A DNA stretch of 64,000 nucleotides from the NCBI RefSeq assembly GCF_014490445.1, contig NZ_JACTUZ010000003.1:1-64000 (forward strand), read 5' to 3'. Shown here piece after piece: positions 54,856 to 64,000 of this stretch. Made by a program: the position numbers and the translations under genes. Origin of the DNA: Pseudoroseomonas ludipueritiae (GTDB lineage Bacteria > Pseudomonadota > Alphaproteobacteria > Acetobacterales > Acetobacteraceae). The notes beneath the pieces are model-generated. The model did not search any database. It was not told the origin of the DNA and saw only the letters and a list, made by a program, of their open reading frames with translations. The first letter of the stretch is position 1; every line of letters begins with the position of its first letter.

Positions 54856-54913
54856 GGAATGCCATGCCTGCCGGCCGGTACGGCTGCGCTTCACGCATCC
54901 TCACCCGGAAAGC

Positions 54914-55096
54914 GACAGCCGGAAAAAGGCCGCGAGGCTCTTCAGGAAACAACTGAAGGAGCGGGCCGATGGTGCCGTCACCGCGCAGGTCTTCGGCAAT
55001 GGCGTGCTGGGCAGCGGCCAGGCCAGCACCGCCCCGGCCCGCGGCGGCACGCCGGATATCGCCAGCACTGCGGCGCGGGTCGAAAAGGCCCGCTGA
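54914..55096 (+). pseudogene. Fragment of a TRAP transporter binding protein (DctP-like)
   Basis: A frame of about 60 codons ends at TGA 55094-55096. It contains AARLFRKQLKERADGAVTAQV, FGNGVLGSGQ and GGTPDIASTAAR in order. This follows the early part of DctP proteins, where a helix with Glu-Arg-x-x-Gly precedes a beta strand, then a Leu-Gly motif, then Gly-Thr-x-Asp. The remaining 250 or more residues are absent. It lies in the 342-base gap between tctA and the SAF gene, so an older transporter gene probably stood here and was replaced or deleted. Confidence 0.6.
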
Positions 55097-55197
55097 TGCG
55101 CGGCGTCATGCCGTTCCTGCTGGTTCCGCTGCCGCAGACCGTCCCACGCCATTGCGCCGGTTCCGCTGAAGCCCGTTCCCCAGACCAAGAGATTGCC

Positions 55198-56580
55198 ATG
55201 AACCATGAGATCCTGTTCCGCAGCCTGGGCGACCGCCGCTTCCGCGTCGGCGTCACCGGCGCCAAGGGCAGCTTCAGCCGGACCCTGCTTTCGCAGATCC
55301 GGGCTGTGCCGCAATTGCAACTGGCGGCGCTGTGCGACCTGGACCCGCAGGGGGTCCTGACGGTGCTGCGGGAACTCGGCTTTCCATCGGAGGCGGCCCT
55401 GCTCTGCGAGGATGCCGGCGCCGCCCGGCAGGCCGCCGGGGCCGGCAGGATCGTCGTGCTGCGCGACCATGCGCTCCTGGCCGCTGTGCCGCTCGACATC
55501 GTGGTGGAAGCGACCGGGCAGCCGGAGGCCGGGGCGCAGGTCGCGATGGAAGCGATCCGGCGCAATGTGCATGTGGCCATGGTCACGAAGGAAACGGATT
55601 CGGTTGTCGGGCCGCATCTGAACCAGCTCGCGAAGGAGCATGGCGTTGTCTACACCACCGCCGATGGCGACCAGCCGGCCAACCTGATCGGCCTTGTCAC
55701 CTGGGCGCGGCTGCTGGGCTTCGATGTGGTGGCCGCGGGGAAGTCCAGTGAATACGACTTCATCTTCGACCATGCGACCGGTGTCGTGACCCAGACGGAC
55801 CAGCGCTGCACCGCACCCGCCCTGGCCGATCTCTGGACATTGGGCGAGGACATCCCGGCGCGCCTGGCGGAACGCTCGGCGGCCCTGGCTGCCCTGCCGC
55901 AGAGCGCGACGCCGGATTATTGCGAAATGAATATCGTGGCCAATTCCACCGGCCTGCTGCCCTCGCGGGACGCGCTCAATTACCCGGTCTGCCGCATCTC
56001 CGAACTGGCGGATATCTTCATACCCCGCGCCGAGGGCGGCATCCTGGACCGGACCGGGGTGGTGGATGTGTTCAACTGCCTGCGCCGGCCGGAGGAAGTC
56101 AGCTTCGGCGGCGGCGTCTTCGTCATCGTCCGCTGCGGCGATGCCGTGGTCTGGGAGATGCTGCGGGAGAAGGGGCATGTGGTCAGCCGCAATGGCCGCT
56201 ATGCCTGCATCTTCCAGCCCTACCACCTGATGGGGCTGGAGACGCCCGTCTCGCTGCTCTCCGCGGCGGGACAGGGGCGCGCCTCGGGCAGCGATACCCA
56301 GCGCTCGCATGCCGTCATGGTCGCCCGCGCGGATCGCGACTTCCAGGCCGGGGAAGTGCTCGAGATGGGCGGGCACCACCATGTCATGACCGGCTGCACC
56401 GCGCTTCTGCTGCCGGCCACCGAGGCGGAAGGCCTGGTGCCCTTCTACCTTGCCGCCCACAAGCGGCTGCGCGTCGATCTTCCACGCGGTACCCTGCTGC
56501 GCGAGGACATGGTTGATCTTGAAGGCTCGGTGATGCAGCGGTTGCGCCGGTCCGTCAGCCTTCAGCCGCCCAAGGACTGA
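55198..56580 (+). CDS. SAF-domain, homoserine-dehydrogenase-like oxidoreductase
   Basis: The 460-residue protein begins with a Rossmann domain (VGVTGAKGSFSRTLLSQI, residues 18-35, then LCDLDPQ). It continues with a catalytic domain containing VVEATGQPEAG, MVTKETDSVVGP and GKSSEYDF. A C-terminal SAF domain (about 355-450) holds ARADRDFQAGEVLEMGG and LPRGTLLREDMVDL. This is the COG4091 layout, found in catabolic operons for sugar acids. The ATG at 55198 fits the homology. It is the last recognisable gene of the GntR-regulated operon and is a candidate dehydrogenase for the transported acid. Confidence 0.8.
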   Translation: MNHEILFRSLGDRRFRVGVTGAKGSFSRTLLSQIRAVPQLQLAALCDLDPQGVLTVLRELGFPSEAALLCEDAGAARQAAGAGRIVVLRDHALLAAVPLDIVVEATGQPEAGAQVAMEAIRRNVHVAMVTKETDSVVGPHLNQLAKEHGVVYTTADGDQPANLIGLVTWARLLGFDVVAAGKSSEYDFIFDHATGVVTQTDQRCTAPALADLWTLGEDIPARLAERSAALAALPQSATPDYCEMNIVANSTGLLPSRDALNYPVCRISELADIFIPRAEGGILDRTGVVDVFNCLRRPEEVSFGGGVFVIVRCGDAVVWEMLREKGHVVSRNGRYACIFQPYHLMGLETPVSLLSAAGQGRASGSDTQRSHAVMVARADRDFQAGEVLEMGGHHHVMTGCTALLLPATEAEGLVPFYLAAHKRLRVDLPRGTLLREDMVDLEGSVMQRLRRSVSLQPPKD

Positions 56581-56900: not shown

Positions 56901-57272
56901 AGCCTGATCCAGGCCGGCGGCATGCCCCGGCCGTCCTGCGCCGTGCCCTGGCCGCCGACCGTGATCGCTGCGGGCGGGAAGCGCCTGCCGACCTGTTGCC
57001 CCGGGGCGGCAGGCATGGCAGGGAAAGGTGAGGCGCGGTCCCTGCTGCGGCGGCTCAACGGCCCGCAAGGCCCCGATGTTCGAGGCTTTTACGCCACGCT
57101 CAGGCTCAAGAGGCAATCGGTGATCCGGTGTGCCACGCCCCACTTCAAAGGAGCAGGCGAGCAGCTTTACCGTGGAGGCCATAATACCACCCGTCCACGC
57201 TACTTTCCGCTGGCCGAAACCTCATATGAGCGACAGAAGCACTGCTGGCCCTGAAAGGTGACGAACAACACC

Positions 57273-58331
57273 ATGAATGATGCGAATATCAACGTCGCTC
57301 CAAGGCTCACGGAACTGGCGCATGGCGGTGGCTGTGGCTGCAAGCTGGCGCCGTCCGTGTTGCAGAAGTTGCTTTCCCGCCAGCCTGCGGCCCAGCCCTT
57401 CAGCCAGCTCCTCGTCGGCACGGAAACGGCGGATGACGCGGCGGTCTGGCAGGTGGACGAGAACCTGACGGTGATCGCCACCACGGATTTCTTCATGCCC
57501 ATGGTGGACAACCCGCGCGATTTCGGGCGCATCGCCGCCACCAACGCGATCTCCGACATCTACGCCATGGGCGGGCGGCCCATCATGGCGCTCGCCATCC
57601 TTGGCATGCCGATCAGCAAGCTGCCGCCGGAAGTGATCGCGGAGGTGCTGGAAGGCGGCGCTTCGGTCTGCGCCGAGGCCGGCATTCCGGTCGCCGGTGG
57701 CCACTCGATCGACTCCCTGGAGCCGATCTATGGCCTGGCCGTCATCGGCCTGGGGCACCCCAAGCAGCTGCGCCGCAACAGCGGGGCACAGCCGGGCGAC
57801 GCGCTGATCCTGACCAAGGGCATCGGCGTCGGCATCTATTCCGCCGCCATCAAGCGGCAGGCTTTGCCGGAAGGCGGCTATGAGGAGATGCTGGCCTCGA
57901 CCACGCTGCTGAACCGCATCGGCTCCAGCCTGGCCAGCGATCCCGCCGTGCATGGCATCACCGATGTCACCGGCTTCGGCCTGCTCGGCCATGGGCTGGA
58001 GATGGCGCGCGGCTCCAGCGTCACCCTGACCATAGAGCAGGATGCCGTGCCGCTTCTGGCCCAGGCGGAGGCCCTGGCGCAGCAGGGCTTCGTCACCGGC
58101 GCCTCGCACCGCAACTGGGACAGCTACAGCAGCGGCGTGACCCTGCCGGAAGGCTGCCCGGACTGGCGCCGCCTGCTGCTGACGGACCCGCAGACTTCAG
58201 GCGGGCTGCTGATCTCCTGCGCAGCGGAGGCAGCGCCCGCCCTGGTCGGCCGCATCCGCGAAGCTGGCTACCCGCTGGCGCGCCAGATCGGCACCATCAC
58301 GGCCGGCCAGCCATGCGTGGTGGTGCGGTAA
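57273..58331 (+). CDS. selD: Selenide, water dikinase (selenophosphate synthetase)
   Basis: The 352-residue protein has the N-terminal catalytic motif [10 protein letters not shown] (Cys21, Cys23, Lys24); the usual Cys/Sec position is a Cys here, so it is not itself a selenoprotein. The AIR-synthase-like fold continues with [38 protein letters not shown] and the C-terminal [13 protein letters not shown] at 57258 is an alternative start. It makes selenophosphate from selenide and ATP, the selenium donor for SelA. The SelA/SelB/SelC genes lie 2-6 kb away on the opposite strand. Confidence 0.95.
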
Positions 58332-59162: not shown

Positions 59163-60548
59163 GATGCTGTCCCGGATGGCAAGGAATGGGCCACGATACA
59201 GAGGCTTACCAATTTGATGTTAAAAGACATTGTTCCGTAATACCGAAAGAAATACCCGGCCTGATTGGCCCATGCTAACCGCGAAAGCGGAGGGCGGCTG
59301 AGCAAAATCCTTGTTCAGCTTCCGCTCGCTTTGATACCGTTCCGCCCATGAGCCAATCATCCCCCTCCCCGTGTCAGCCGACAGGCGCGCGGCGATGGCA
59401 GCGACATGGGCGCTGCTGGAGCGGAGTAGCGCCTAGAGCGCCAGATGTACGGCGGCGGCAGCGCCTTGTGGTCCAGCCATGATCGACCAGAGCGAACAGG
59501 CCGCCCTTCTGGCCCAAGTTCCCGCCGTTCAGCGGGTGCCCCTCCATGACCAGCGTATTGTGGACGCCGCAGGACCGCACTGTGGCGCCACGGTATTCCC
59601 GGGCCGTCCATTCGCCTTCACCAGCCGGACCCCAGGTGCGAGATCAGGTTGCTCATGCGGATGATCTAACCGCGCGGCAGGAGCGCGGCCATGCCAACAA
59701 TTATGGCGGGTATCTCAAGGTGTAGGCTTAGGCACTATATTGAGGGATTATCGTGCGGCGATGGTGCGGAAGCAGGCCGCAGCAGGATGGGAAGCGGAGA
59801 TAACTACTTCCTGCTTAGCCTCCTCGGGCAGAGTTGAGGGCGAGCAGGTAAGTGGCACCGTCATGGCTCAACGTTGCAAAGCGGCTGTCCCAAAGGTTCT
59901 GTGTCCACTTCAGGAAGGTCAGTGCGTGCGGATTGCCGCGCTTCGCCCCACGAAGACGCGGCGCCAGGATATGCATCGCTGCGAGGATCAGGCCAGCGCA
60001 AGTCCAAGGCTGCGGAGCGAGTGGAGGACGTGGTTCCCAAGGCTGAGCAGCACGTCCGCTGCGTGTACCTCTGCCCACTTCGGCGGTTCTGAGCGTACCA
60101 AACGTGGGCCATGGCTTCGAATGGCCGGGTGGTCGCGTGAGCCTTCGCCGCCCGCTTCAGCCGCTTCTCGGTGTTGAGGTCGCGCCCGGCCGCACCGGAT
60201 GAGGGTGGCATCCCATTGCTGGTAGGCGCAAGCCGACGACACGCGCGGGTATTATCCTATGGGTGGTGTCTTTTATCGACCACCATGTTCGTAGCGGTAG
60301 ATCCACCGCTTCGATCTATTCGGCACGGTCTGAAGATGCGGGCCGCCGCCTTCGCCCAGGCAGTAAAGCTTCTCTCCCGGTGCCGCCGCCGCACCCGCCT
60401 ATCGGTCAGCACCGGACCTTCCGATGCCCGGTATCCCGCATAGGCCGGGTCGAATGTCCCTCAACAAAGGGCTTCAACAGGAACAAAGCGGGACATCCAA
60501 TCCACCCGATGTTCTTGGACTTATTTGAGCCTATTTAAGATTGGGTAT
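59163..60548. other. Long stretch without recognisable gene
   Basis: About 1.39 kb, mixed in GC content and lower around 60230-60330 and 60500-60545. Frames of up to about 145 codons occur on both strands but none has family features. Short minus-strand segments near 59860-60240 read like decayed coding sequence, possibly a lost transposase or other gene; I could not assign them. The 3' end of selB and of the tRNA-Sec gene lies at its right edge. Confidence 0.4.
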
Positions 60549-62573
60549 TGGCGGAAGAGAATGGGAGTCGAACCCACCCGGGACAGTCTCGCTGCCCCAC
60601 CCGGATTTGAAGTCCGGACGCCCCACCAGGAGCGACTCTCTTCCATCCGCGGGCGGCGAGCCGAATTGGTCCGCCCGATGCGGGTTGATGCGCCGAAGAT
60701 CGCCCCGGCGCAAGGTCACACCGTGGCGGTCGAAGAAGTCCAGGATCTGGATGGCGACCTTGCGGCCATTGTCCATGCGGTCCCGGAAGGCGGCGGCGGT
60801 GAAGACGCCATCTGGCGCCTGGGCGGCCACGTCGCGCGCGATGGCCACCATCTCCGCCGTGGTGGCGCGCTGGAAGAAATGGTCATGCGCGACCTGGTCC
60901 ACCCGCCCCAGCCGGGCGCAGGCCTTCAGCACGCGGCGGACCTCGGCCTCCGCCACCTCGAAATGATTGGCGATGTCGCGCACGCGCGGTGGGCGGAAGC
61001 GCGCCTCCCCGCCCAGCAGCGGCAGGATGCGGGCGAAGAGCTCCTCATCCGCCGGGTCCAGCCGCACCTCATGGCCGGGTAGGCGCACGAAGGCGCCTTC
61101 CAGCACCACGGAGCCGGCGCGGGCCTCGCGCTCCAGCGCCGCGCGGAAGGCCGGCGCGGGCAGGAGGGGCCGCACCAGCATCCGCAACCTTTCGCGCCCG
61201 ATGCCCTGGATATCCGGGTTTTCCTCATGGAAGCGCCCGGTTTCGGCCAGCAGGCTCTGGCGGAAGGCTTCCCAGTGTTCCGGCAGCAGGGCCAGGCGCG
61301 CTCCGGCGGTCTCGATCACCACGGCCCGCAAGGCATCGGTCAGCGCCTGCCCCTCAGCGCGCGTCAGGGCATGGTCGCGGGCGAAGGCCAGGGCATCGGC
61401 ATGGAAGGGCGGCAGGCGCAGCAGCCCGGCCAGGGCATCGGCCGGCGCCCGCGCCGAAAGGGCCGTGAGCTGCGCGACGCGCTCCGGCGTGCGGCGCTTG
61501 CGGGCGGGCGGGCGCAGGTCCAGGCAGCGCCCGCCGCCGATGGTCCGCTGCGCCGAGACATCCCGCAGGATGAAGCGGTCCCCAGCCGCCGCGGCGATGG
61601 GCTGGTCCAGCACCACCTGCACCAGGCCGTTGCCGCCGGGCTGCAAGGGGTCCTCCAGCGGCACCAGCCGGGCGCCGACCTCGGCGCTGGCATGGTGCAG
61701 CCGCGCCGGGAACCAGGTGCCGAGCGGCTTGGGCTCGCTGGCCAGCACGCGGAAGGTGGCGTCGATGCGGTCGGTGGGTGCGTGCAGTTCCGGTGCCAGC
61801 ACCATGTCGCCGCGCCCGACGGCCTCCTTGGAAATCCCCTCCCCCACCAGGTTCAGGGCGCAGCGCTGCCCGGCGAGGCCCCGCTGGGCCGGGCGGTTCT
61901 GCGCGTGGATGGAGCGGATGCGGGCCGGGATGCCCCGTGGGCTGACCACCACCCCATCGCCCACCGCCACGGCGCCGGAGAGCACCGTGCCCGTCACCAC
62001 CGTGCCGGCGCCGGAGAGGGTGAAGCTGCGGTCCACCGAAAGCCGGAAGGCGCCCTGGTCCTCCGGCTGCGCGGTCTCGTCCTCGGCCCGGGCCAGGGCG
62101 GCGCGCAATGCTTCCATCCCCGCGCCGGTGCGGGCCGAGACCGGCAGGATCGGCACATCCGCCAGGGCGGTATCGGCCACCAGGTCGCGGATCTCGGCCG
62201 TCACGGCCTCAAGCCGCGCGGCATCGGCCAGGTCGGCCTTGCTCAGCGCCACCAGCCCACGGCGGATGCCGAGCAGGTCCAGGATGGCCAGGTGCTCCCG
62301 CGTCTGCGGCATCACCCCGTCATCGGCGGCCACCACCAGCAGGGCGAAGTCGATGCCGCCAGCGCCGGCCAGCATGGTATGCACGAAGCGTTCGTGGCCC
62401 GGCACGTCTACGAAGCCGGTGACATGCTCGCCTTCCCCGGCATAGGCGAAGCCGAGATCCACCGTGATCCCGCGCGCCTTTTCTTCCTTCAGCCGGTCGG
62501 TATCGACACCGGTCAGGGCTTTGACCAGCGCCGTCTTGCCATGGTCGATATGGCCCGCGGTGCCGACGATCAT
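60531..62573 (-). CDS. selB: Selenocysteine-specific elongation factor
   Basis: The 680-residue frame opens [22 protein letters not shown] (P-loop GHIDHGKT). It has [32 protein letters not shown], the GTPase domain, two beta-barrel domains and C-terminal winged-helix repeats, with the end [23 protein letters not shown] near residue 636 (quoted in parts as family pattern). SelB carries Sec-tRNA to UGA codons followed by a SECIS hairpin. The ATG overlaps the stop of the Sel1-repeat gene (ATGA). The stop TAG is at 60531-60533, past the whole tRNA-Sec gene, so the last 37 or so residues are encoded by tRNA sequence. Intact SelB usually ends about where the tRNA begins. Confidence 0.92.
60549..60644 (-). 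tRNA. selC: tRNA-Sec (anticodon TCA)
   Basis: The 96-base gene includes an encoded CCA (60551-60549). The 8-pair acceptor stem is GGAAGAGA with TCTCTTCC, characteristic of tRNA-Sec. The anticodon TCA is at 60610-60608 in loop CTTCAAA on a CCGGA/TCCGG stem. A long extra arm and the T loop in GGTTCGACTCC follow, and the discriminator is G. It reads UGA as selenocysteine. The gene lies within the 3' end of the selB frame on the same strand, starting about six codons after the conserved SelB C-terminus. Confidence 0.95.
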
Positions 62574-63361
62574 GCGCCCTCCTCCTCCAGCGGCAGGGCG
62601 GCCCGGCGGGCGGCCTCGGCCCTGCCGGCATCGTCCAGCCGCGCCCGTGCCGGGCCCAGGAAGGGCTGCGCCAGGCCGCTGCCACCCGCCTGCGCCCGCA
62701 GCAGCCAGGCCAGGGCGGTGACGGGATCGGCCTCCACGCCCGCGCCCAGGACATAGGCGGCGCCCAGCATGGCCTGTCCATCGGCATCGCCATGCCCGGC
62801 GCCCCGGCGCCACCAGCGCGCGGCTTCCGCCACATCCCGCTCCACCCCCAGCGCGTGGTGATAGAGCATGCCCATCCGGGTCATGGAGGAAGCGATACCC
62901 GCCTCCGCCGCCGCCAGTGCCCAGCGGTGCGCCTCCTCGGGGTCGGAGGGGATGACTTCGCCTTCCAGCAGCATCCAGCTCAGCATGTCCTGCGCCTGGG
63001 CGTCGCCCTGCTCCGCCGCCTGGCGATAGAGAGCGGCAGCGTGGGCCGGGTCGGCCTCCACCGCGTCTCCGCCGCCTTGCAGATACAGCGCGGCGAGGTT
63101 GCGCTGGCCGGCGGGATAGCCGGCCTCAGCGGCCAGGGTCAGCCATGTCAGCGCTAGGGCCGGGTTGCGTTCCACCCCCATGCCCTCGGCGAAGCAGGCG
63201 CCGATATTGGACTGCGCCCGCGCATCGCCCGCGCGCGCCAGCGGCTCCCAGAGGTTCAGTGCCTCGGCGTAATCGCCGCGCTGGAAGGCGGCCAGGGCGA
63301 GTTCCATCGGGTCGGGCGGCGGCGGCGCGGCGCGGCGCCGGAACAGGTCAAACAGCGCCAT
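62570..63361 (-). CDS. Sel1-like repeat (SLR/TPR) protein between selA and selB
   Basis: The 263-residue protein starts at ATG 63361, overlapping the selA end by 14 bases, and its stop overlaps selB as ATGA. After a short polar N-terminus it has about five to six Sel1 repeats ([88 protein letters not shown] and [21 protein letters not shown], each a separate repeat). No signal peptide is seen, so it should be cytoplasmic. Sel1 refers to a repeat name unrelated to selenium. Strict coupling to selA and selB suggests a role in selenocysteine biosynthesis or in selenoprotein assembly, by inference. Confidence 0.85.
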
Positions 63362-64000
63362 GGCTGGAAGGCAGCTTCGCGAGGTTGGAGAGGAAGCCCG
63401 CCTCATCCGTCAGGCAGCGCAGGTCGAGCACCAGCGCCCCGTCCCGCAGCCGGCCAATCACCGGCCGTGGCAGGTCGCGCAGCGCCGCGGCCAATGCTTC
63501 CAGCGCCCGCCCACCGGGCGCGGCCAGGCGCAGGCCGAAGCTGGGCAGCGTGTCCAGCGGCAGGGCGCCGGAGCCGATCTGGCTGTGGCAGGGCATCGCC
63601 TCCACCGCCACACCCGGCGGCAGGAGGCCGGCCAGGGCGGGCAGGATGCGCCGCGCCTGCGCCTCGATCTCCGCCTGCGGGCGGGAGAGCAGCCGCAGGG
63701 TCGGCAGCCGCTCGGCCAGCCGCTGCGGGTCGCGGTACAGCTTCAGCGTCGCTTCCAGCGCGGCCAGGCGGATCTTGTCCACACGCAGGGCTCGCTTCAT
63801 CGGGTTGCGGTTGATGGCCTCGATCAGCTCCCGCCGGCCGACGATGAAGCCCGCCTGCGGCCCACCCAGAAGCTTGTCGCCGGAGAAGGTGACAAGGTCC
63901 GCCCCCTCCTCCACCGCCTCCCGCACCGTGGGCTCCCGCGCCATGCCATAGGGCGAGAGATCGATCAGCGTGCCGGAACCGAGGTCGTTCAGCATGGGCA
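63348..64000 (-). CDS. selA: L-seryl-tRNA(Sec) selenium transferase, 5' part missing
   Basis: The reading frame enters from the window edge and gives about 217 C-terminal residues. The PLP lysine lies in [46 protein letters not shown] and [23 protein letters not shown] are also SelA signatures (quoted as separate patterns). It converts Ser-tRNA(Sec) to Sec-tRNA(Sec) with selenophosphate. It is the first visible gene of the selA-SLR-selB-selC unit; the start and any selenoprotein gene such as formate dehydrogenase would lie beyond the window. Confidence 0.93.

Follow-up and report, generated by a model that had tools for sequence, protein, structure and literature searches.

Why does a protein reading frame run through a complete tRNA gene, and is it kept open for a reason? 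This is the question raised by the 64,000-nucleotide stretch of DNA analysed here (the window). An earlier note on it had described a selB frame without a stop before selC, passing all 96 bases of the tRNA and ending at the TAG at 60531-60533, with the conserved SelB C-terminus about six codons before the tRNA. Both points were confirmed, the first by open reading frames, ARAGORN and Rfam and the second by alignment with relatives, and the nesting of selC in the selB frame is real in the window (Table 1). The frame spans all of selC in phase 0 and the TAG is its first in-frame stop. The tRNA-Sec carries the anticodon TCA and scores above the Rfam gathering score of 47, as a functional tRNA-Sec with a UCA anticodon should. 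SelB was identified by its match to NCBIfam TIGR00475 over residues 1-628 of 680 (420 bits against a cut-off of 242.25), with PF09107, the last winged-helix domain of SelB, at residues 589-628, and the region that can be aligned with relatives stops at residue 637, 18 nt 5' of the tRNA. The SelB extension thus comprises 43 codons (6 spacer, 32 tRNA and 5 tail).

Table 1. Features of the selB-selC region in the window.
Feature	Position	Strand	Basis or remark
selB, 680 aa	60531..62573	-	ORF list; TIGR00475; Pfam GTP_EFTU and SelB winged helices
In-frame spacer between conserved SelB core and tRNA, 18 nt (six codons)	60645..60662	-	
selC (tRNA-Sec), 96 nt with encoded CCA, 32 codons from GGA in the selB frame	60549..60644	-	ARAGORN; Rfam RF01852, 83.5 bits
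selB tail, five codons and stop	60531..60548	-	
Separating stretch between selC and ORF2, about 1.37 kb	59163..60530	-	ends approximate
ORF2, 126 aa	58782..59162	-	without NCBIfam or Pfam match
Sel1/TPR-repeat protein	62570..63406	-	TPR-type matches only, all below curated cut-offs
selA, 3' part, continuing past the window edge	63348..63998	-	TIGR00474
selD, on the strand opposite to selA, selB and selC	57258..58331	+	NF002098, 494 bits

The surrounding genes belong to a Sec-decoding system, made up of selA (partial in the window), selB, selC and selD plus a gene that carries a Sec codon in frame. On the minus strand the order is selA, the Sel1/TPR-repeat gene, selB and selC, and selD is on the plus strand. 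The selA part inside the window scored 242.4 bits over 216 aa against TIGR00474, for which the cut-off of 267.9 refers to the whole protein. The gene with the Sec codon is a Sec-type formate dehydrogenase alpha gene on the same contig beyond the window, in which a single in-frame TGA falls between positions 194 and 196 of TIGR01553, so the Sec system has a client. A tmRNA gene (233 bits) is also present in the genome. The Sel1/TPR gene and selB overlap at 62570-62573, where ATGA holds both the stop of the former and the start codon of the latter, and selB may therefore be translationally coupled to the gene upstream. Near selD, at 54859-56580, lies a gene for a protein with a DRL oxidoreductase catalytic domain (PF21135).

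The arrangement and the model of RNase P cleavage with a non-stop message are already known, as the coupling put forward in the earlier note is the hypothesis of Mukai 2021 (Int J Mol Sci 22:4605, PMC8124441). Mukai 2021 described tRNA-Sec nested in selB in Rhizobiales, some Rhodobacterales, Rhodospirillales and Caulobacterales, mentioned overlap-bearing Roseomonas lineages, and proposed that tRNA processing leaves a non-stop selB message, SelB and tRNA-Sec being alternative products. Passages in two reviews (PMC9312934 and PMC13188914) repeat this account, and no experimental test of the nested selB-selC model was found in searches of the open-licence PMC literature. Like the nested genes of Mukai 2021, in which a tRNA of 96 or 93 nt is read from GGA to CCA or CCN, the window has the whole tRNA-Sec within a same-strand selB ORF (96 nt with CCA, GGA first), and the small conserved ORF1 or ORF2 found downstream in those genes is represented by ORF2. 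Unlike in those genes, ORF2 is about 1.37 kb off selC, and the selB stop is written ATAG, so no start codon overlaps it; overlap with the start of the next ORF is found in many, not all, of the cases in Mukai 2021. What is new here is that the frame is kept with no detectable constraint on the residues, and that the link to ORF2 is cut in this genome.

Chance as the source of the overlap, which the earlier note had allowed for, could account for the window as a single locus, as nested tRNAs tend to be open in other reading frames as well: of the 51 distinct nested tRNAs in register, both alternative frames are closed by a stop in only 4, and after an insertion in the spacer the frame through the tRNA would stay open in 75% (+1), 86% (+2) or 95% (3 nt) of cases. 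One open frame is therefore weak evidence, and a test of phase over many loci was needed. Genes for tRNA-Sec were taken at E 1e-11 or better, because other tRNAs match weakly at E 0.001, where the first tRNA search matched all 145 genomes and all 14 controls. At the stricter threshold tRNA-Sec was found in 104 of 397 genomes of the window's family and in 55 of 385 genomes of a class sample. The 105 family loci comprised 19 nested, 5 with the stop inside the tRNA and 30 with the stop before it, together with 50 without a SelB frame upstream in the DNA taken and 1 uncalled by ARAGORN; for the 54 other class loci the numbers were 2 nested, 1 inside, 25 before and 26 without a SelB frame upstream. 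No SelB match was obtained for 76 of the 158 loci, and a profile search added just one, on the other strand; these loci may have a more divergent SelB, or the DNA taken may be too short. Named SelB loci (the best 80 of at least 572 candidates, ranked by similarity to an alignment of SelB proteins that were mostly nested) gave 49 nested, 24 with the stop before the tRNA, 2 with the stop inside and 5 without tRNA-Sec downstream.

Weak rows and 9 duplicates were left out. Among the 82 family and class loci with an upstream SelB match, 31 were excluded for identity below 45% or an alignment ending before residue 627, and these were 30 stop-before loci and 1 stop-inside locus. The resulting 117 distinct loci consist of 63 nested loci, 47 with the stop before the tRNA and 7 with the stop inside, showing that nesting is not essential. 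Nested genera include Roseomonas, Roseococcus, Rhizobium, Paracoccus, Phyllobacterium, Ancylobacter, Microvirga and others. On a quick SelB tree of the 117 rows (LG+G4, SH-aLRT, 31 of 114 inner branches weak) the nested trait changed at least 15 times. The window SelB, 80% identical to that of Roseomonas rosea, falls in a trait-bearing alphaproteobacterial lineage, a close clade of 19 tree rows (starred branch, support 98) in which 17 are nested, L006 has its stop inside the tRNA and L018 before it. A selB stop beyond selC in relatives, which the earlier note had proposed to look for, is thus consistent within one SelB lineage and not across the family, where 30 of the 105 loci stop before the tRNA.

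At all 63 distinct nested loci the tRNA is in phase 0, counted from its first base, across 19 different spacer lengths from 0 to 93 nt that are all multiples of three. The stop-before loci that could be phased (41 of 47, alignment reaching residue 637) were spread over phases 0, 1 and 2 as 15, 13 and 13; of the stop-inside loci, 2 belong to phase 0 and 5 to phase 1. Out-of-phase read-through of the whole tRNA was absent from the 117 distinct loci; five out-of-phase frames enter it and all stop inside. By parsimony, spacer length changed at least 32 times on the tree, and with a minimum of 18 length changes and three sizes equally likely the chance of in-phase survivors alone is about 2e-8, a rough figure in which length changes are treated as independent. 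The fixed phase over varied spacers, with shifted frames mostly open, makes the frame look selected. The shared phase exceeds what chance would give, and such a strictly kept frame favours some selected role.

These counts also bear on whether the extension is a relic without present function: a single loss of the stop, a phase 0 that was open by accident, and an arrangement not yet lost by its lineages, with no selection in this genome. With the tRNA open in all frames at most nested loci a single locus needs no selection; nesting has often been lost on the tree, and in the window coupling to ORF2 is already broken. Neutral drift should, however, leave out-of-phase read-through at some loci, and phase 0 has instead persisted despite many spacer-length changes. 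We consider a relic improbable.

Partial overlaps were seen in two forms. In Dyella and Luteibacter the selB stop lies at tRNA nucleotides 46-48 (PMC8124441), the same place as in L006 and L229, unlike the window frame, which crosses the whole tRNA. Four family loci (L024, L079, L085 and L116) enter selC in phase 1 and stop at tRNA nucleotide 54, and are a second, out-of-phase kind of partial overlap.

A fixed phase could also mean that the peptide itself is used, the phase-0 reading of the tRNA providing a near-constant C-terminal tail that aids SelB. The tRNA does keep the peptide nearly constant, and Mukai 2021 (PMC8124441) described C-terminal extensions that were retained after the tRNA had degenerated. 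We compared nested loci whose spacers were equally long and whose cores were at least 0.75 identical, in 17 pairs (7 in the case of the tail). The SelB core showed the third-position excess of a constrained protein, with changes at the three codon positions of 190/146/661 and a pN/pS of 0.20 (0.17-0.23). This excess was absent from the spacer (45/40/45, pN/pS 0.78, 0.60-1.01, against 0.75 and 0.79 in the wrong frames), the tRNA part (42/33/31, pN/pS 1.17) and the tail (17/15/13, pN/pS 1.28). Nor did nested tRNAs differ from non-nested ones (1/63 and 68/153, respectively, dropped as out of register, pre-deduplication): codon-position changes were 33/27/29 and 79/65/79 (p 0.89), and synonymous versus non-synonymous codon changes were 19/59 and 43/139. 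PF09107, moreover, ends before the extension. Selection at the protein level was thus not found in either comparison, and a functional peptide appears very improbable, while weak constraint on the spacer could still be present. The difference in pN/pS between the core and the three parts of the extension indicates that it is the open frame which is kept and not the residues, and translating through selC seems to matter rather than the peptide.

Another reason for an open frame would be translational coupling, in which ribosomes ending selB restart on ORF1 or ORF2 and the tRNA merely lies in the path. ORF1 (16 loci) or ORF2 (23 loci) is located just 3' of selC in 39 of the 63 distinct nested loci, of which 36 have ATGA or GTGA at the selB stop. 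ORF2 lies 10-45 nt past the tRNA in relatives, and among the nested relatives with ORF2 its start mostly overlaps the selB stop. In the 96-row clade, with gaps below 200 nt, the ratio of nested to not nested was 39:3 with an adjacent ORF1 or ORF2 and 24:24 without (Fisher 7e-6). Neither ORF was adjacent in any of the 7 stop-inside loci among the 117. As adjacency goes with nesting, coupling is suggested as part of the cause, and it is probably a contributor in many lineages. That adjacency is the only cause was rejected, since the raw table is strong but the kinship-aware test is not significant: branch-independent pairs were 4.8 for and 1.0 against in the 96-row clade with gaps below 200 nt (median p 0.219), and 4.1 for and 1.3 against over all rows (median p 0.375).

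The 24 nested loci without an adjacent ORF1 or ORF2 also speak against coupling as the general explanation, as phase 0 is kept there over 12 spacer lengths and at least 14 changes. Seven of them read ATGA or GTGA, with no ORF of at least 60 aa starting there. The Ancylobacter-type clade has six rows, four of them nested, in phase, at spacer lengths of 33, 48, 57 and 66 nt, and two in which nesting was lost and the frame moved to phase 1; none of the six has an adjacent ORF1 or ORF2, so coupling cannot hold the frame there. In the window, ORF2 starts 1371 nt past the selB stop, hence coupling is broken and nesting persists. We regard coupling as a rather unlikely explanation of the open frame.

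The stretch that separates selC from ORF2 has a lower G+C than selB (0.614 vs 0.721), and two ORFs within it gave no Pfam match. A close copy was not found among 17 genomes of the genus, where fragments of 28-111 bases alone matched. The sister row on the tree, L004 (support 87, not starred), has ORF2 directly at the selB stop, and the stretch therefore most likely arose in the window's lineage. Insertion targeted to the tRNA 3' end was rejected as its source, as the 21-nt tRNA end does not recur in the window at up to 3 mismatches; only four 17-nt places in the window's own genome resemble the tRNA end, with 2 mismatches each, all on other contigs.

The reading we tentatively prefer, as a plausible account that may well prove wrong, is that selB translation and tRNA-Sec maturation are mutually exclusive fates of one transcript. 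selB and selC would share a single RNA. Where ribosomes continue through selC, the tRNA sequence would be unwound and read as codons, termination at the stop just beyond the tRNA would release full-length SelB, and many relatives would then start ORF1 or ORF2 from the overlapping start codon. Where the tRNA folds first, RNase P would cut at its 5' end and 3' trimming would yield tRNA-Sec, leaving a selB message without a stop codon; ribosomes on this message would be rescued by tmRNA and the SelB product destroyed. The outcome would be that SelB is kept low relative to tRNA-Sec. That the two genes are co-transcribed, that their common RNA is cleaved, that ribosomes are rescued and that the amount of SelB is affected is inferred. 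A scan for sigma-70-like promoters found no site, but as 0.1 was expected by chance the result carries no weight.

In favour of alternative fates we counted the phase shared by all 63 nested loci, the pN/pS contrast between core and extension, the phase kept at the 24 loci without an adjacent ORF1 or ORF2 (the Ancylobacter-type clade among them), and the tmRNA and formate dehydrogenase alpha genes of this genome. Counted against it were the stop-before and stop-inside loci among the 117 with the repeated changes of the trait on the tree, the loss of nesting in two of the six Ancylobacter-type rows and, as far as the whole cause is concerned, the tracking of nesting by ORF1/ORF2 adjacency. A further possibility, somewhat unlikely, is that non-termination itself is what is kept, in one phase and with the residues free, so that the tRNA would act on the message that contains it as a switch controlled by processing, without regard to the gene downstream. 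With its ORF2 link lost, this genome would then be a natural experiment that separates the two roles.

If the alternative-fates model is true, a tRNA and its elongation factor would be balanced via one shared RNA. According to Mukai 2021 (PMC8124441) and passages of the 2022 review (PMC9312934), such gene control in bacteria is described for the selB-selC locus only. Our comparison narrows the choices, as the frame is held and the peptide is not, and as nesting outlasts the loss of downstream coupling; a small number of constructs would thereby suffice for a direct test of the 2021 hypothesis. Two other systems, both as cited in Mukai 2021, are comparable. In the mitochondrion of Armadillidium vulgare tRNA-Lys lies inside cox1, likewise a tRNA in a protein frame with alternative RNA fates proposed, but unlike selB-selC in a compact mitochondrial genome and with two products that are unlinked. 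The E. coli autoregulation of SelB by a SECIS-like element (Thanbichler and Boeck 2002) also holds SelB low; unlike in the model for the window, SelB there binds its own operon mRNA and no tRNA processing is involved.

Two minor observations concern the tRNA-Sec and SelB of relatives. In L124 (G358) and L169 (Pararoseomonas baculiformis), which are nested too, the tRNA-Sec anticodon arm GACGTCACGTCC replaces GACTTCAAATCC, with TCA kept. In L026 and L028, both from the window's genus, selC adjoins a SelB-like frame with merely 29-35% identity to the window SelB, and the genus may accordingly hold two SelB lineages.
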